A stretch of DNA of 64,000 nucleotides from Micromonospora sp. R77 (GTDB taxonomy: Bacteria > Actinomycetota > Actinomycetes > Mycobacteriales > Micromonosporaceae), in contig NZ_JALDST010000001.1 in assembly GCF_022747945.1 (NCBI RefSeq), positions 1,922,001-1,986,000 on the forward strand. Direction: 5' to 3'. A model generated the notes under the pieces. It had not been told where the DNA came from, searched no databases, and saw nothing but the letters and a program-made list of their open reading frames with translations. The translations under genes and the position numbers were made by a program. This document shows, in pieces, positions 27,866 through 37,538 of the stretch (positions are counted from its first letter, which is position 1; each line of letters begins with the position of its first letter).

Positions 27866-29610
<1,745 letters not shown>

Positions 29611-29614
<4 letters not shown>

Positions 29615-31317
29615 GCGTCCTCCTCCCGGCTCACCGTGGCCACGTAGCGCGGCTCGGTGGCGAGCAGCTCGTCGTGCCGGCCGGTGGCCACCACCTTGCC
29701 GTCCTCCACGAAGACCACGTGCTCGGCCCGGCCCAGCATCAACGGGCTGGTGGTGCAGACCAGCGTGGTGCGGCCGCGCCGGGCCGCACCCAGCCGGTCC
29801 GCGATCCGCGCCTCGGTGTGCGCGTCCACCGCACTGGTCGGCTCCACCAGGATCAGCGTCTCCGGGTCGGCCACCAGCGCGCGGGCCAGCAGCAGCCGCT
29901 GCCGCTGCCCCCCGGAGAACTCCCGGCCCCGCTCCGCCACCGGGCTGTCCAGCCCGGCGGGGAGCGCGGCCACGATGTCCGTCGCGCTCGCCGCGACCAG
30001 GGCCGCCTCGACGGCGGCCCGGTCGCTCGTCCCGTGCGGGTCCAGCTCCGCGAGCAGCGGGCCGGTGAACAGGTGCGCGTCGTTGTCGGCCACCAGGATC
30101 CGCTCGCGCACCGTCGCCAGTGCCACCTCCCGCAGCGGTACGCCGTGCAGGGTCACGTCGCCCTCGACGTACCGGCCGAGGCGGTCGGCGATCTCGGTGG
30201 CGTCCTCGGGCGCGGTGGCGGCCAGCGCGGTGAACCGTCCCGGCCGCAGCACCAACCCCGACCGGACGTCGACCAGCTCGCCGGGCCCGTCGGGCAGCGG
30301 CACCGGCCGGGCCGGGTCGACCAGCTCCGGGGCGAGCCGGAGCAGCCGGACCACCCGGCGGGCGGCGACGTGCCCCCGGGTCAGCTTGTCGGCCGCCTCG
30401 GTGAGGTTGCGCAACGGGCTGACCAGGAAGGCGGTGTAGCCGTAGAAGGCGACGAGCTGGCCGGCGCTGATCTCGCCGCGCAGCGCGAAGCGGGCCCCCA
30501 GCCAGGTCACCAGCACCAGGAACACGCCGGGCAGCAGGATCTGGGCGGCCTGGAGCAACGACTCCACCCGGGCCACCCGCAGCCCGCCGGCCCGCAACGC
30601 CTGGGACTCTTCCCGGTAGCGCGCGGAGAGCACCGGCTCGCCGCCCACCCCACGCAGCACCCGCAGCCCGGAGACGATGTCGGCGGCCCGGGCGGTCAGC
30701 CGGCCCTCCGCGTCCCGGTAGGCCTGCTGCTGCCGGTGCAGCGGCCGGATCAGCAAACCGACCAGCCCCATGAGCAGCGGCACGCCGAGCACCACCACCA
30801 GCCCCAACGGCACCGACGCGGTCAGCAGGATCACCGCGACCGCCACGACGGCCGCCACCGAACCGGTGCCCCGGGCGGTGATGTCGACGGCGTGCCCGAT
30901 CTGGCCGATGTCGGCCGTACCGATGCTGACCACCTCGCCCGCCGCCACCCGGCGGGGCAGCGCGGCGCCCAGCCGGTTGGTGGCCTCGACGGTCACCTGC
31001 ACGGTCCGGTACGCGGCGGCCAGCCAGTTCTGCACCGCGCAGCGGTGCCGGAGCATCCCGGTGACCGCCTGGAGCACACCCAGCCCCAGCAGGGCCGCTC
31101 CCCAGTGGAGCAGCGCGTCCGGGTCGCGTTGACCCAGGCCGGCGTCGATCGCCCGGCCCACCGTGGCCGGCATCAGCGCCTGCGCCAGCATCCAGACGAC
31201 GCCGAGCCCGATGCCCGCGCCGAACAGGACAGGGTGCCGGCCGGCCAGCCACACCAGGTAGCGGGTGGCGGACCGGTCGTCGGGGGTGCCGGGGTCGCCG
31301 GCCGGTGACACGGGCAT
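29611..31317 (-). CDS. ABC exporter half-transporter with degenerate nucleotide site
   Basis: The 568-residue partner has about six membrane helices and a nucleotide-binding domain in which Walker A is lost (FTALAATAPEDATEIAD, no GKS/T), the Walker B Asp is Val (LILVEPTSAVD) and the switch His is missing (LVCTTSPLM), while the signature FSGGQRQ is intact. This fits a heterodimeric asymmetric exporter, where this subunit supplies the signature to the other subunit's Walker site. ATG 31317 is used; GTG 31311 is better spaced from GGGAG and is an alternative. It is the first gene of the two-gene operon. Confidence 0.9.
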
Positions 31318-31418
31318 GTCTCCCGACGCTAGGCGGCCGGCCCGACGCGGCGCGAACGATTTCCCGGCCGACCCCGGCCTGGTCATCGGGGCGATCCTGG
31401 CGGCCGGAGTCCGCCGGG

Positions 31419-31673
31419 TCAGCGGTCGACCCGGGTGAAGTCCCACGAGTGCGGCGGCCGGGCCACCAGCCGGGCCGGCGGCTCCGGCAGGTCCCGGGGG
31501 CCGCTGCGCCACTTCGAGATCACCACCACCCGGTGGTCGGTGGAGGAGAAGACCTCGCTGGACAGGTGCAGCGGGTCGTGCTCGAAGTCGGGCAGCGCGG
31601 TGTCGCAGACCCAGGTGATGAGGTCCGCGAAGCCGTACGGCTCCGCCCGCGCCTCCCACATCCGTACGATCAT
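31419..31673 (-). CDS. Small conserved-looking protein of unknown function
   Basis: An 84-residue protein ([48 protein letters not shown]). The alternation of strands and helix, the N-terminal MIVRMWEA and VVVISKW suggest a small ferredoxin-like or dimeric alpha-beta barrel domain, as in antibiotic-monooxygenase-type proteins, but I cannot assign a family. Its ATG overlaps the tsaD stop by four bases (ATGA), so it is the last gene of the tsaB-rimI-tsaD transcript. The coupling makes it likely to be translated. Confidence 0.65.
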
Positions 31674-33194: not shown

Positions 33195-33250
33195 GCCACC
33201 TCGGATCGCGACTGCGGGGCTCGCAAACCCGGCGCACTCCTCGCGCTCAC
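33195..33250. repeat. 56-bp intergenic repeat, copy A (stop codon to ribosome binding site)
   Basis: On the minus strand it runs from just before the tsaB stop codon (the TGA is inside it) to the AGGTGGC ahead of the rimI start. It shares 51 of 56 positions with copy B at 38025-38080. It fills almost the entire tsaB-rimI spacer. Confidence 0.85.
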
Positions 33251-33924
33251 GGTAGGACCGGCTTGTGGCCGGTCGCCGCGACCGCGTCCGGGCGACGCAG
33301 GTAGAGCGGGGTGAGCGGCTCGCCGGGGGCGCCCGCCCGGATCCGCTCCGCGGCCAGCACGGCCAGCACCGTCGGGTCCGGGTAGCGCGGCTCGGCCCGC
33401 AGCGGCAGGCCGAGCACGTCCGCGTACCGGTGCGCGCCGTCGCCGACCGCGACGGTGACGGCCAGGTCGCGGGCCCGCTCGGCGACGACCGCGGGGGCCG
33501 CCACGTCCGGCCCGGCGATCCGCTGGCCCGCGCCGTCGTAGACGGCCCAGTAGACCTCGCGGCGGCGGGCGTCGCTCGCGGCGAGCACCGGCTCGCCGGC
33601 CGCCGCCGGGTGACCGATGCCGTCCAGCGAGCAGACACCGTACGTGGGGATGCCGAGCACCTGCCCCATGGTGGCGGCGGTGACCAGCCCCACCCGCAGC
33701 CCGGTGAACGGGCCGGGGCCGAGCCCCGCGACGATCGCGGTCAGGTCACGCGGGCGGGCGTCGACGTCGGCCAGCACCGCGTCGACCTGCGGGGCGAGCA
33801 GCTCACCGTGCGCCCGCGCGTCGACGGTGCAGCGCTGCGCGCGGGGTGTGACGCCGTCCGCCGAGACCTCGACCAGCGCCGCGGTCACCGCGGGCGTCGA
33901 GGAGTCCACCACCAGTACGAGCAC
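33247..33924 (-). CDS. tsaB: tRNA threonylcarbamoyladenosine biosynthesis protein TsaB
   Basis: TsaB is the non-catalytic ASKHA partner of TsaD needed for t6A synthesis. The 225-residue protein has LVLVVDSSTPAVTAAL, LLAPQVDAVLADVDARPRDL and VAGLGPGPFTGLRVGL, typical of the family. GTG 33924 is the start. Its stop codon lies inside the 56-bp repeat that separates it from rimI. In most actinobacteria tsaE sits directly upstream; here the RiPP-like operon and ung lie between. Confidence 0.95.
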   Translation of the reverse strand: MLVLVVDSSTPAVTAALVEVSADGVTPRAQRCTVDARAHGELLAPQVDAVLADVDARPRDLTAIVAGLGPGPFTGLRVGLVTAATMGQVLGIPTYGVCSLDGIGHPAAAGEPVLAASDARRREVYWAVYDGAGQRIAGPDVAAPAVVAERARDLAVTVAVGDGAHRYADVLGLPLRAEPRYPDPTVLAVLAAERIRAGAPGEPLTPLYLRRPDAVAATGHKPVLP

Positions 33925-33997
33925 GGTAAGCCAGCCTAGTCGCCGCCCCGGTCACGCCCCGTCACCCCCCGTCTCCGTCGGCCGACCCGCCACCGGA

Positions 33998-34873
33998 TCA
34001 GCGACCGGCGGCCGGCAGCGGCGCGAGCTGCGGGCTGTCGAAGGTCAGCGTGGGCAGCAGCAGCCACTGCTCCGGTGCCCGGCTGATCAACGCGGCGAGC
34101 ACGTCCGCCAGCACCTGCCGCAGCCCGGCCCGGGCCGACGCCCGGTCGGCGGGACGGTCACCGACCAGCAGCGGCTCCTCCAGCCGCAGGACCAGCCGGT
34201 CGCCACGACGGTGCAGCACCGCCGGGAGCAGCATGGTGCCCGGTCGGGCGGCCAGCGAGACGAAGCCCGCGGAGATCGGTCGGCGCCGCCCGAACAGGGT
34301 GACCGGTTCCACCCCCCGCCCCGGATAGACGAAGTCCGGATACGTGCAGAGCACCCCGCCGTCGGCCAGGGTGGCCAGGATCCGGCGCAGCGCCCCGCTG
34401 CCCTCGGAGACCACCGGCACCCGGACCCCGGCGGGGAGTTCGGCGCTGCTGGTGTCCTCGCCGAAGGCCACCAGCGGACGGTCACCGAAGACCTCGGCCA
34501 CGGCGTGCAGCGCGTCCGGGGCAGGCACGGTCAGCGGGGACACCAGCACCGTCGGGTGCCCGGCGGTCTCGGCCAGCCACTCGGCGCCCACCACCTGCGT
34601 GGTCGGCAGTGGCCGGGCCGCCCCCGCCGTCCAGCGGGCCTGCCGCCAGGCACACCAGAGCTGGTGGGCCAGCACCCGCCGGACGGCGTCCGGCCCGCTG
34701 TCGCCGCCGACCGCCGCCAGCGCCTGCCCGATCCGCCGGTTCTCCCGGTACGGGTCGCCCGCGGCGAGCCAGCCGGCCAACTCGTCGACCTCCGCCGGAC
34801 CACGGTCGCCGAGCACCCGGGCGTGCAGCGGGTCGAAGGAGAGTTCCTGGAGCGCGGCGGCCAGGCTACGCAT
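33998..34873 (-). CDS. Acyltransferase-like protein in a putative RiPP operon
   Basis: The 291-residue protein has an N-terminal region without recognisable motifs and a C-terminal part (about 110-280) resembling lysophospholipid acyltransferases of the lipid A acyltransferase type: TVLVSPLTVPAPDAL, TYPDFVYPGRGVEPVTLFG, FVSLAARPGTMLLPAVLHRR and a terminal APEQWLLLP. The catalytic HX4D/E motif is absent: the position of the His is occupied by Ser-Pro. No membrane segment is obvious. Its ATG overlaps the stop of the radical SAM gene, so it belongs to that operon. A role in acylating or handling the modified peptide is possible but unproven. Family assignment is tentative. Confidence 0.7.
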   Translation of the reverse strand: MRSLAAALQELSFDPLHARVLGDRGPAEVDELAGWLAAGDPYRENRRIGQALAAVGGDSGPDAVRRVLAHQLWCAWRQARWTAGAARPLPTTQVVGAEWLAETAGHPTVLVSPLTVPAPDALHAVAEVFGDRPLVAFGEDTSSAELPAGVRVPVVSEGSGALRRILATLADGGVLCTYPDFVYPGRGVEPVTLFGRRRPISAGFVSLAARPGTMLLPAVLHRRGDRLVLRLEEPLLVGDRPADRASARAGLRQVLADVLAALISRAPEQWLLLPTLTFDSPQLAPLPAAGR

Positions 34874-36251
34874 GGGCGCATCCCGCCGTCAGGCTGCGCA
34901 GCCAGTCCAGCAGGCCGTCCCCGCGCACCAGGGAGAGCGAGATCCGGTCGAAGGCGCTCAGCGCCACCGCGCAGCCGCTGTCCCACACCTCGTTGAGCGA
35001 GGGCGCGTGCGCCAGGCAGGTGCCGCCGCACACCCCCAGCCATAGGCAGTCCGCGCACCGGCTCGCCGACAGGTCCCGGTGCCGGATGGTGGTGGCCACG
35101 TCGCTGCTGCGGGCGTCGGCCAGGCCGCCGGCCACCGTGCCGAGCCCGGCGAGCGGGCCGGTCGGGTCGATGCAGTCGCACGCCTCCACGGTGCCGTCCG
35201 AGGAGACCGAGAGCAGGTCGCGGGCGGCCCCGCAGTCGCCGCGCAGGCACATGTTGCCGCCCGGCCCGGCGAGGAAGTTGTCCAGGTACTTCTTCACGGG
35301 CAGCACGGCGAAGCCGGGGAACTCGCCGCCCTCCACCGCTCCGAAGAGCTCCTCCCACGCCTCGGCCAGCACCGCCGGGTCCAGACCGAACCGGGCCGCG
35401 TCGGCGCGCCCGCGCCCGATCGGCTGGAAGAGGCTCCAGTCCCAGGTGGTCATCCCGACGTCGCGGAAGTGCCGGGCCAGCGGCAGCAGCAGCCGCTGGT
35501 TGGCGGCCGTGATGGTGCTCATCACGCCGGCCGAGCGGACGAAGTCCGGGTAGCGGGCCAGCGCCGAGGCGAACGCGTCGTACGTGCCGCGCCCGCGATG
35601 GTCCCGGCGGAACAGGTCGTGCACCGGCGGTGGCCCGTCGACCGAGACGCCCCAGGCGATGTCGTGGGCGCCGGAGAACTCCACCACCCGGTCGGTGAGC
35701 CGGGAGAAGTTGCTCTGCCCGACGAACCGGATCCGCCGGCCGCGTTCGGCGGCGAGCCGTTCCCCGGTGACCACCAGGTCCTCGATGAGCGGCCAGAGCA
35801 GCATCGGTTCGCCGCCGTGCAGGATCACCGCCAGCTCGGCCGGCGCGATCTCGAGCGCCTGTTCGATCGCGGCCACCGCGACCGCCCGGTCGATGGTGGT
35901 GGCCTTCTCGAAGACCTCGAAGTCGTAGCAGTAGGCACAGGCGTGGTTGCACGCGTTGGTGAGCTTCAGGATCAGCGTGTTCAGCTCGCTGAACCGTTGC
36001 TCCCCACCGACCACCCCGATCCCCTGGTCGAGCAGGAGTTGGCGGAGCCGGGCGACCGGCTCCCGGACGGCGGCGGGCAGCAGCGCCGGTGGCTGGTCGA
36101 CCAGCGGGAGCAGGGGCTCCACCCGCTGGTCGACCGTGGTCCACCGGCCGGAGACCTGGTCGATGACCAGGAGGTGCCCGTCGCGGGGCAGGGTGCGGAC
36201 CCGGTCCGGGTCGAACCGGCTCCGGTGCAGGGTCAGCGCGACCGGTGGCAT
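34866..36251 (-). CDS. Radical SAM/SPASM peptide maturase (cyclophane-forming type suspected)
   Basis: The 461-residue enzyme has an N-terminal segment of about 90 residues that may bind a leader peptide, a radical SAM core with the cluster motif CNHACAYC (Cys101, 105, 108), the SAM-binding ILHGGEPML, and a C-terminal SPASM region with many Cys (335, 340, 358, 360, 399, 402, 408, 412 and 427) for two auxiliary clusters. This layout is that of RiPP maturases that join side chains by carbon-carbon bonds, including the cyclophane-forming group. ATG 36251 begins 11 bases after the stop of the small upstream gene, which is therefore the likely substrate. The specific reaction is an inference. Confidence 0.88.
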   Translation of the reverse strand: MPPVALTLHRSRFDPDRVRTLPRDGHLLVIDQVSGRWTTVDQRVEPLLPLVDQPPALLPAAVREPVARLRQLLLDQGIGVVGGEQRFSELNTLILKLTNACNHACAYCYDFEVFEKATTIDRAVAVAAIEQALEIAPAELAVILHGGEPMLLWPLIEDLVVTGERLAAERGRRIRFVGQSNFSRLTDRVVEFSGAHDIAWGVSVDGPPPVHDLFRRDHRGRGTYDAFASALARYPDFVRSAGVMSTITAANQRLLLPLARHFRDVGMTTWDWSLFQPIGRGRADAARFGLDPAVLAEAWEELFGAVEGGEFPGFAVLPVKKYLDNFLAGPGGNMCLRGDCGAARDLLSVSSDGTVEACDCIDPTGPLAGLGTVAGGLADARSSDVATTIRHRDLSASRCADCLWLGVCGGTCLAHAPSLNEVWDSGCAVALSAFDRISLSLVRGDGLLDWLRSLTAGCAHA

Positions 36252-36262
36252 GGCGGCCGGGC

Positions 36263-36655
36263 CTAGGCCGCGCCGGCCCCGCCGGCCCGGTGCATGTCGG
36301 GATATTCGAGGGTGGTGTGGCGCAGCTGGGACTCGACGTGCTGACCGCGGGCGTCGATGTGGGCCAGGCTGCCGTCGGCGGTCCACTCCTGCAGGACCGG
36401 CTCCTCGAAGTCCTCGATCCGACTGCGGTGTCCGCAGCAGGCCCGGCTCCACTCGGCCCAGACGCCCGGATCCGCCGCCGTGCCGGGGCGCAGCGCGTCG
36501 ATGACGACGGTGTTGACGCCGGCCGGCCGGATCTCCTCCGGGAGCACGGAGAGGACCCGGTCGGCCTGCTCGGTGACGTACTTCTCGATCTCGCGTTCGG
36601 GCAGGTCGTGCAGGCGCATCGAGTCCGGTGCGCGCAGGTTGATGATCTTTGCCAT
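36263..36655 (-). CDS. Candidate RiPP precursor peptide
   Basis: This 130-residue protein is the first gene of the radical SAM operon. The N-terminal half (MAKIINLRAPDSMRLHDLPE, then a helix EIEKYVTEQADRVLSVLPEE) looks like a leader or folded domain. The C-terminal half has Trp66, Trp69, Cys73, Cys74, Phe83, Trp91 and Tyr118 in short aromatic-X-X-polar/acidic contexts (EWSR, DFEEP, EWTAD, EYPD), which are plausible cyclophane sites, and it ends AGGAGAA. GAGGTGG precedes ATG 36655. I recognise no family with certainty; the call rests on context and residue pattern. Confidence 0.7.
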   Translation of the reverse strand: MAKIINLRAPDSMRLHDLPEREIEKYVTEQADRVLSVLPEEIRPAGVNTVVIDALRPGTAADPGVWAEWSRACCGHRSRIEDFEEPVLQEWTADGSLAHIDARGQHVESQLRHTTLEYPDMHRAGGAGAA

Positions 36656-36676
36656 GGGCCACCTCGTTCAGGTCGG

Positions 36677-36704
36677 AGATTACTGCTCACGACGGTGATG
36701 TCAC
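36677..36704 (-). promoter_or_regulatory. Candidate promoter of the RiPP-like operon
   Basis: On the minus strand GTGACA (36704-36699), 16 bases, TAATCT (36682-36677), about 20 bases before the precursor ATG. It is in the 127-base gap after ung, so the operon has its own transcription start. Confidence 0.5.
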
Positions 36705-36782
36705 GAACCGTAACTGTCCAGGGACCTGTCCTTGAGCTGACACGCTCGCCCGGCTGCCCACCCGCCGCACGGCCGACCTGGG

Positions 36783-37484
36783 TCAGCCGGCGGAGCGTTC
36801 CCAGTCGACGGTGGGCAGGCCGGCGTCGGCGAGGGCCTTGTTGGCCGCGCTGAACGGCCGGCTGCCGAGGAAGCCGCGCGGGTTCATCGGGCTGGGGTGG
36901 CCGGCCTCCAGCACCACGTGCTGCGGGTTGGTGACCAGGGCCGCCTTCTTGCGGGCGTACCCGCCCCAGAGCAGGAAGACGACGCGCTGGTCGAGGGCGT
37001 CCAGGGCGCGGATGGTGGCGTCGGTGAACTCCTCCCACCCGGAGTTCGCGTGCGACCCGGGGGTGGCCTGCCGGACGGTGAGCACCGAGTTGAGCAGCAG
37101 CACGCCCTGGGCCGCCCAACCGTCCAGGTTGCCGCTGCGCGGCTTTGGCACGCCCAGGTCCTCGCCCAGCTCCTTGAAGACGTTGCGCAGCGACGGCGGC
37201 ACCGACACACCCTCGCGCACGCTGAAGCTCAGCCCGTGCGCCTGCCCCGCCTTGTGGTAGGGGTCCTGCCCGAGGATCAGCACCCGGCACTGCGCCGGCC
37301 CGCACAGCCGGTAGGCGGAGAAGAGGTCCTCGACCGGCGGGAAGACGGTCTGTGTCGCGTACTCCCGGGCGACGAACTCGGCCAGCGCGGCGGTGCGCGC
37401 CGGGTCGAGGTGCGGGGTGAGCACCGCCCGCCAGTCGTCGGGCAGCAGCGCCAGCAGGTCCAGGGTGGGCGCGTCGTCGGGCAT
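36783..37484 (-). CDS. ung: Uracil-DNA glycosylase
   Basis: Family 1 UDG removes uracil from DNA. The 233-residue protein shows the catalytic GQDPYH (Asp74), the uracil-pocket LLLNSVLTV and the Leu-loop motif HPSPMNPRGFLGSRPFSAAN, all complete. ATG 37484 is chosen (AAAGG upstream); an in-frame ATG 37514 would add ten residues without support. It is the next gene after tsaE on the same strand, 55 bases away, and separates tsaE from the RiPP-like operon. Confidence 0.95.
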   Translation of the reverse strand: MPDDAPTLDLLALLPDDWRAVLTPHLDPARTAALAEFVAREYATQTVFPPVEDLFSAYRLCGPAQCRVLILGQDPYHKAGQAHGLSFSVREGVSVPPSLRNVFKELGEDLGVPKPRSGNLDGWAAQGVLLLNSVLTVRQATPGSHANSGWEEFTDATIRALDALDQRVVFLLWGGYARKKAALVTNPQHVVLEAGHPSPMNPRGFLGSRPFSAANKALADAGLPTVDWERSAG

Positions 37485-37538
37485 CGGCAACCTTTCGCAG
37501 TCGGTCCCGGGCACTCTAGGCAGCGGGTACGACAGCGC

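Follow-up and report, generated by a model that had tools for sequence, protein, structure and literature searches.

The stretch of DNA analysed here (64,000 nucleotides of Micromonospora sp. R77, contig NZ_JALDST010000001.1, positions 1,922,001 to 1,986,000; referred to below as the window) carries at 33998..36655 a cassette of three minus-strand genes which we read, with a probability of roughly 60%, as a small, horizontally moving pathway for a ribosomally synthesized and post-translationally modified peptide (RiPP), in which a radical S-adenosylmethionine (SAM) enzyme would cross-link the W-x-R-x-C core of a precursor. The genes lie head to tail and encode a precursor-like small protein of 130 aa (36263..36655), then, after a gap of 11 bases, a radical SAM/SPASM maturase of 461 aa (34866..36251) and, overlapping this by 8 bases, a protein of 291 aa with a predicted PatA/LpxL fold (33998..34873). 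An earlier interpretation made from the letters alone (the sequence-only reading) had given the same coordinates, gap and overlap, all of which were recovered, and had likewise proposed a RiPP system, a proposal now supported by the recurrence of the small protein with the enzyme and by the precursor-like conservation of its core. In a mechanical listing of open reading frames (ORFs) the enzyme ORF is open upstream to 36662, and the ATG at 36251 lies near the start of most aligned homologues.

A protein search with the enzyme found at least 188 relatives, 120 of which were listed. A profile of 44 enzymes (A2) was needed to find loci, as scanning genomes with one enzyme sequence alone gave 59 stretches of which none was confirmed; a contig search with this profile gave 46 loci. 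Ten of these (L002-L011) match the enzyme at 41–64% identity over nearly its full length and come from the named genera Streptomyces, Antribacter, Archangium and Luteimonas and from six metagenome-assembled genomes (MAGs) labelled Proteobacteria, Desulfobacterales, Gammaproteobacteria, Hydrogenophaga, Acidobacteria and Nitrospirae. The neighbourhoods of close enzyme homologues had been suggested as a check in the sequence-only reading, and a six-frame profile search of the ten loci showed the third gene adjoining the enzyme gene in nine (the exception being L008) and the small protein upstream of it in eight (the exceptions being L008 and L011), with all three genes together in eight. The small protein is separated from the enzyme by 3–61 bases in six of these eight. 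The remaining 36 loci (L012-L047) were rejected as members, with at most 35% identity and no six-frame match to the small or third gene better than E 0.9. A weak match of the third type (E 0.00012) is the second acyltransferase of L011.

The three proteins have correlated distance matrices, with r = 0.78 for enzyme and third protein (10 sequences including the window, permutation P 0.0001), 0.64 for enzyme and small protein (nine sequences, P 0.0097) and 0.75 for third and small protein (nine sequences, P 0.0014). Given these correlations and the reappearance of the set in distant bacteria, the association of the genes is more than chance. Contig sizes were also compared: among the 49 small proteins for which a contig was listed, 19 have a longest contig of exactly the same size as that of one of the 120 listed enzymes, and when sizes were shifted by 1–50 bases either way as a control the mean was 0.31 and the maximum two.

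The small protein was recognized from the ORF listing and its homologues. In an alignment of 54 such sequences (A4; 50 after removal at 90% identity) residues W69, R71, A72 and C73 are invariant, giving W-x-R-A-C in 54/54 and in 50/50 after filtering, while W66 is present in 49/50 and C74 in 48/50, and WxxWxRAC occurs in 53 of the 54; there are exactly two tryptophans in 47/54 and exactly two cysteines in 49/54. Residues 65-74 (VWAEWSRACC, encoded at 36434..36463 on the minus strand) are the best-conserved stretch, with a mean of 3.92 bits per column, the highest of five stretches (2.75 for residues 1-18, 2.44 for 19-64, 2.84 for 75-87 and 1.92 for 88-130). The sequence-only reading had picked out W66, W69, C73, C74, F83, W91 and Y118, all of which lie at the positions claimed; W66, W69, C73 and C74 are strongly conserved and F83 is either F or Y, but W91 and Y118 are not conserved. 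Outside the alignment, the outlying precursors of L009 (GWSRSC) and L011 (a 71-aa ORF with WWDRFC) keep W-x-R-x-C with A72 replaced. The precursor of L002 (1273-1497, Streptomyces sp. E2N166) ends in ...PPVWRRVCAE, two residues past W-R-R-V-C; it lacks a follower and lies 241 bp from the enzyme gene. In L009, L010 and L011 too, the tail is either missing or unrelated.

Judged from these sequences the small protein looks like a RiPP precursor, with a core that is kept and a leader and tail that vary, and it is probably the substrate of the enzyme. It is most improbable that it serves instead as an accessory (a chaperone, electron carrier or targeting protein), the substrate being encoded elsewhere or being a lipid handled by the third protein: the PatA-fold partner does hint at lipids and the small protein is predicted to be folded, but the conservation peak is a string of W, R and C typical of a modified core, outlying relatives shrink or diverge yet hold this string, and the enzyme carries a domain resembling a RiPP recognition element (RRE; see below).

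No known enzyme or fold, a possibility raised by the sequence-only reading, was recognized in the small protein. It has no family in Pfam or NCBIfam, where scattered NCBIfam matches (at most two of the 54 members each, best E 0.00056) were taken as chance, and no PDB sequence relative better than E 0.17; a fold search with its model gave no usable PDB match, which does not show a new fold. The AlphaFold (AF2) model is a beta-alpha-beta-beta arrangement of moderate confidence (pLDDT 75.8 for the best and 48.6 for the worst of five) with core residues 66-70 in a strand. This predicted fold, together with conservation beyond the core at H106, E108 and H122 in the tail, would suit a second explanation, that the 130-aa protein is itself the working protein and that its Trp, Arg and Cys are made into a built-in cofactor, as in QhpC, the gamma-subunit of quinohemoprotein amine dehydrogenase. 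QhpD is reported to act on this whole small subunit, which has Trp and Cys and carries a 28-residue leader (PMC7876137), the QhpD-type family is the second-best match of the enzyme (TIGR03906, 115.2 bits), and the cassette has no exporter. However, the enzyme misses the cut-off of that family (453 bits), the cassette holds no amine dehydrogenase or other partner subunits, hydroxylase, flavoprotein or protease, and the tail is lost or replaced in the four relatives just named. We consider a cofactor unlikely, although the conservation of H106, E108 and H122 still speaks for it.

The enzyme matches Pfam Radical_SAM (2.5e-11) and, as had been claimed, has a complete CxxxCxxC and many SPASM cysteines: C101-C105-C108 are Cys in 44/44 aligned enzymes, and of the further cysteines (335, 340, 358, 360, 399, 402, 408, 412 and 427) eight are found in 44/44 and C360 in 43/44, a set that fits two auxiliary clusters. 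Pfam SPASM is matched by 40 of the 44 at E <=1, the match of the window's own enzyme being weak (0.041), and the best solved relative is PDB 9gm3 (‘ChlB’, E 1.1e-18). The N-terminal 88 residues were aligned with PqqD-like domains, 23 of which were kept from 30 fetched after seven clipped ones had been dropped. Residues 28-78 cover nearly the whole domain with an hhalign P of 1.4e-4 and a probability of only 53%, the best P among 20 column-shuffled controls being 0.094, and we read this region as a divergent, PqqD-like RRE. A pVip identity, offered by a defence library, was rejected, the weak matches (32 bits) falling on the radical SAM domain and reflecting the shared radical SAM fold.

Among the 25 NCBIfam matches shown of 73, none reaches its cut-off. 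The best are PapB (NF047865, 121.9 bits over residues 90-415, cut-off 340 bits), the QhpD-type family and DynA (87.7 bits), and the models of cyclophane formers lie far below their cut-offs: FxsB 72.8 of 370 bits, YhhB 77.5 of 445, XyeB 48 of 450, AmcB 50.8 of 425 and GrrM/OscB 40.1 of 310. The cassette nevertheless resembles the triceptide systems (XncB, OscB, YhhB and FxsB-type) in pairing a SPASM radical SAM enzyme with a small precursor that has an aromatic-x-residue motif, and differs from them not only in these scores but in its PatA-fold partner and in a precursor that is long, belongs to a new family and has an invariant Cys.

In the pathway that we favour, residues 1 to ~60 of the small protein would form a folded leader bound by the RRE-like domain of the enzyme, residues 65-74 (WxxW-x-R-A-C) would be the core, and the rest a follower that is missing in some relatives. 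By means of a 5'-deoxyadenosyl radical and a pair of auxiliary clusters, the enzyme would oxidise and cross-link the core with a loss of 2 Da per link, most likely joining the ring of Trp69 to the beta-carbon of Arg71 in a three-residue W-x-R cyclophane, with a possible second link from Trp66 to residue 68. Cys73 would be left over for a further step, and the PatA-fold protein would come next, working on the cross-linked peptide or bringing it to the membrane. That the cross-links lie within W-x-R-x-C is likely; that they form a Trp–Arg cyclophane specifically is a leading guess, held tentatively and by analogy. XncB, which has W-x-R as a substrate motif, reportedly bonds C6 of Trp to the beta-carbon of the Arg two residues on (i, i+2; PMC11002830), and W69-x-R71, found in 54/54 small proteins, therefore fits a known reaction.

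The prominence of PapB among the family matches raises a different chemistry, in which a ranthipeptide- or sactipeptide-type maturase would link the sulfur of Cys73 (or Cys74) to an acidic residue at 75, 81 or 82 or to Arg71, the tryptophans only binding the active site. PapB, like the enzyme here, is a SPASM-type protein acting on a leader–core precursor and is reported to accept Cys-Xn-Asp with n of 0–6 (PMC9413430); PapB and the QhpD-type are the two best NCBIfam matches, and Cys73 is present in 54/54. The small protein differs from PapA, however, in being without the repeated Cys-X3-Asp/Glu reported there (PMC9413430). No single Asp or Glu after Cys73 is invariant (column 75 has D 30, G 17, A 2 and S 1, n = 50), although E81 and D82 would be possible partners, these columns being acidic in 46/50 and 48/50, L002 has only A-E after its Cys, and the invariant Trp69 and Arg71 would go unexplained. 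We regard such a thioether as rather unlikely, though it is the strongest rival to the cyclophane.

The third gene had been singled out by the sequence-only reading as an oddity; it is indeed unusual for radical SAM peptide systems, and no such system with an acyltransferase partner was found in the open-access PMC literature (a description elsewhere is possible), yet it is a constant part of the cassette, present in 9/10 loci. Its product has a predicted PatA/LpxL fold (PF03279). The window protein scores 18.5 bits, under the Pfam gathering score of 22.3, and of eight relatives three lie above that score (L003, L007 and L011), three are weaker and two give no match. HX4D/E is the catalytic motif of PF03279 acyltransferases. 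The genome's own PatA-like protein has it as H-AGNW-D, whereas the aligned catalytic His is Leu or Met in all 10 third proteins (9/9 aligned and Met in L005), being Leu114 in the window. As the third protein is without the catalytic His of lipid O-acyltransferases, ordinary lipid acylation is less likely, and S- or N-acyl transfer needing no such base, or a non-catalytic escort, is the more likely role; acyl transfer by this protein is a possibility that we put forward tentatively.

A further link to RiPPs is found in L009 (10212-12136) and L010 (4857-6776), where a TIGR03975 RiPP C-methyltransferase, absent from the window's cassette, lies directly after the third gene. It is read in two frames, a B12-binding piece followed by a radical SAM piece, both matching; the second piece scores 293 (L009) and 340 (L010) bits, above the cut-off of 282, and the first, scored alone, 162 and 160 bits, below it. 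This neighbour is possibly a methylating branch of the same system.

A number of observations weigh against the cross-linking pathway. Of the curated families it is PapB, a former of Cys–Asp/Glu thioethers and no cyclophane former, that the enzyme matches best; Cys73 shows the same invariance as Trp69 and Arg71, and a pure W-x-R cyclophane does not need or explain it, so that it could serve in a thioether, as a site of acylation or in both roles. The RRE is matched in part, the 53% lying below the 80% HHpred probability reported for the building of RRE-Finder (PMC7470986), and Pfam PqqD finds no match in the 44 enzymes. For a disposable precursor the small protein is unexpectedly long, and much of it is conserved, and its conserved H106, E108 and H122, placed as if to bind metal, are not explained by a precursor. 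The cassette has no protease or dedicated exporter. Among the relatives, the enzyme of L008 (47% identity) stands without either partner, L011 has an upstream ORF with the core motif only, 688 bases separate the small protein from the enzyme in L004, and the precursor gene of L002 may have decayed, if it is not a follower-less variant. Lastly, shared descent could account for the distance correlations as well as shared function could.

The cassette is an insertion of ~2.8 kb (approximately 33980..36781 by blastn against 14 same-genus loci) between tsaB (33247..33924, minus strand; PF00814, 8e-25), downstream, and ung, the uracil-DNA glycosylase gene (36783..37514, minus strand; PF03167, 1.2e-16), upstream. 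The sequence-only reading had placed it between tsaB and tsaE, which is right on the tsaB side, but the other neighbour is ung and tsaE lies one gene further. No aligned piece longer than 100 bp covers 34025-36766 in any of the 14 loci, both flanks are present in 11 of them, and in L050, L054 and L058 only 41–88 bases lie between the ends of the tsaB and ung alignments; tsaB itself is present in 41/41 same-genus genomes, the window's own included. Nothing convincing was found as repeats at the insertion ends, and in base composition the insert is unremarkable. The claim that the cassette has its own promoter is unproven, a consensus scan for sigma-70-type promoters and terminators, which covered no other promoter types, having given none.

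The small protein was found in one of the 61 genomes searched, the sole match being the window's own genome, and is 97% identical to a protein named Micromonospora mangrovi. Among 396 actinobacterial genomes the enzyme (E <=1e-60) and the third protein (E <=1e-15) were each found in one, again the window's own, in searches that scored the four to five best first-look candidates per listed genome and could miss distant relatives; a single other radical SAM match to the enzyme in that genome, a distant one, scores 49 bits. No close plasmid copy of the enzyme was found, the 134 matching plasmid records all being below 60% identity (best listed 30%, peaB-type), and six distant enzyme-matching loci lie on viral contigs. 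The cassette appears to be rare, mobile and horizontally moving, and is found in distant bacteria.

Several features of the surroundings were noted besides. The slot between tsaB and ung is longer in some same-genus loci, and in L055 (2400-3125) it is occupied by another gene, whose product looked by eye like a helix-turn-helix protein; this site may therefore be prone to small insertions. Downstream of the cassette, past tsaB and tsaD, two overlapping ORFs at 27866-31659 of the window (minus strand) resemble, on inspection by eye, ABC exporter half-molecules. Elsewhere the genome encodes a separate PqqD-like protein (G000:C1:258153-258353, L094; 50.6 bits), which may belong to another RiPP pathway. 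The lone enzyme of L008 (7878-13387, an acidobacterial MAG) has a MacB/FtsX-type permease and a B12-binding radical SAM protein as neighbours, and L011 (7556-14772, Luteimonas) combines the 71-aa W-x-R-x-C ORF and the third gene with a second LpxL-like acyltransferase and a TraB/GumN family protein.

If the pathway proposed here is correct, it would add a precursor family outside every Pfam and NCBIfam model and a partner new to the radical SAM peptide literature searched. It would also tie an acyltransferase fold without its catalytic base to a peptide maturase, making the role of such proteins in peptide pathways directly testable, and the short invariant core means that the chemistry could be decided by a single co-expression experiment. 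A bolder and more doubtful extension is that the cassette represents a new RiPP class carried across bacterial phyla by gene transfer, in which a cross-linked W-x-R-x-C core would then be acted on by the PatA-fold protein, for example by acylation of the invariant Cys, to give a membrane-anchored, cross-linked lipopeptide or a protein-borne cofactor.

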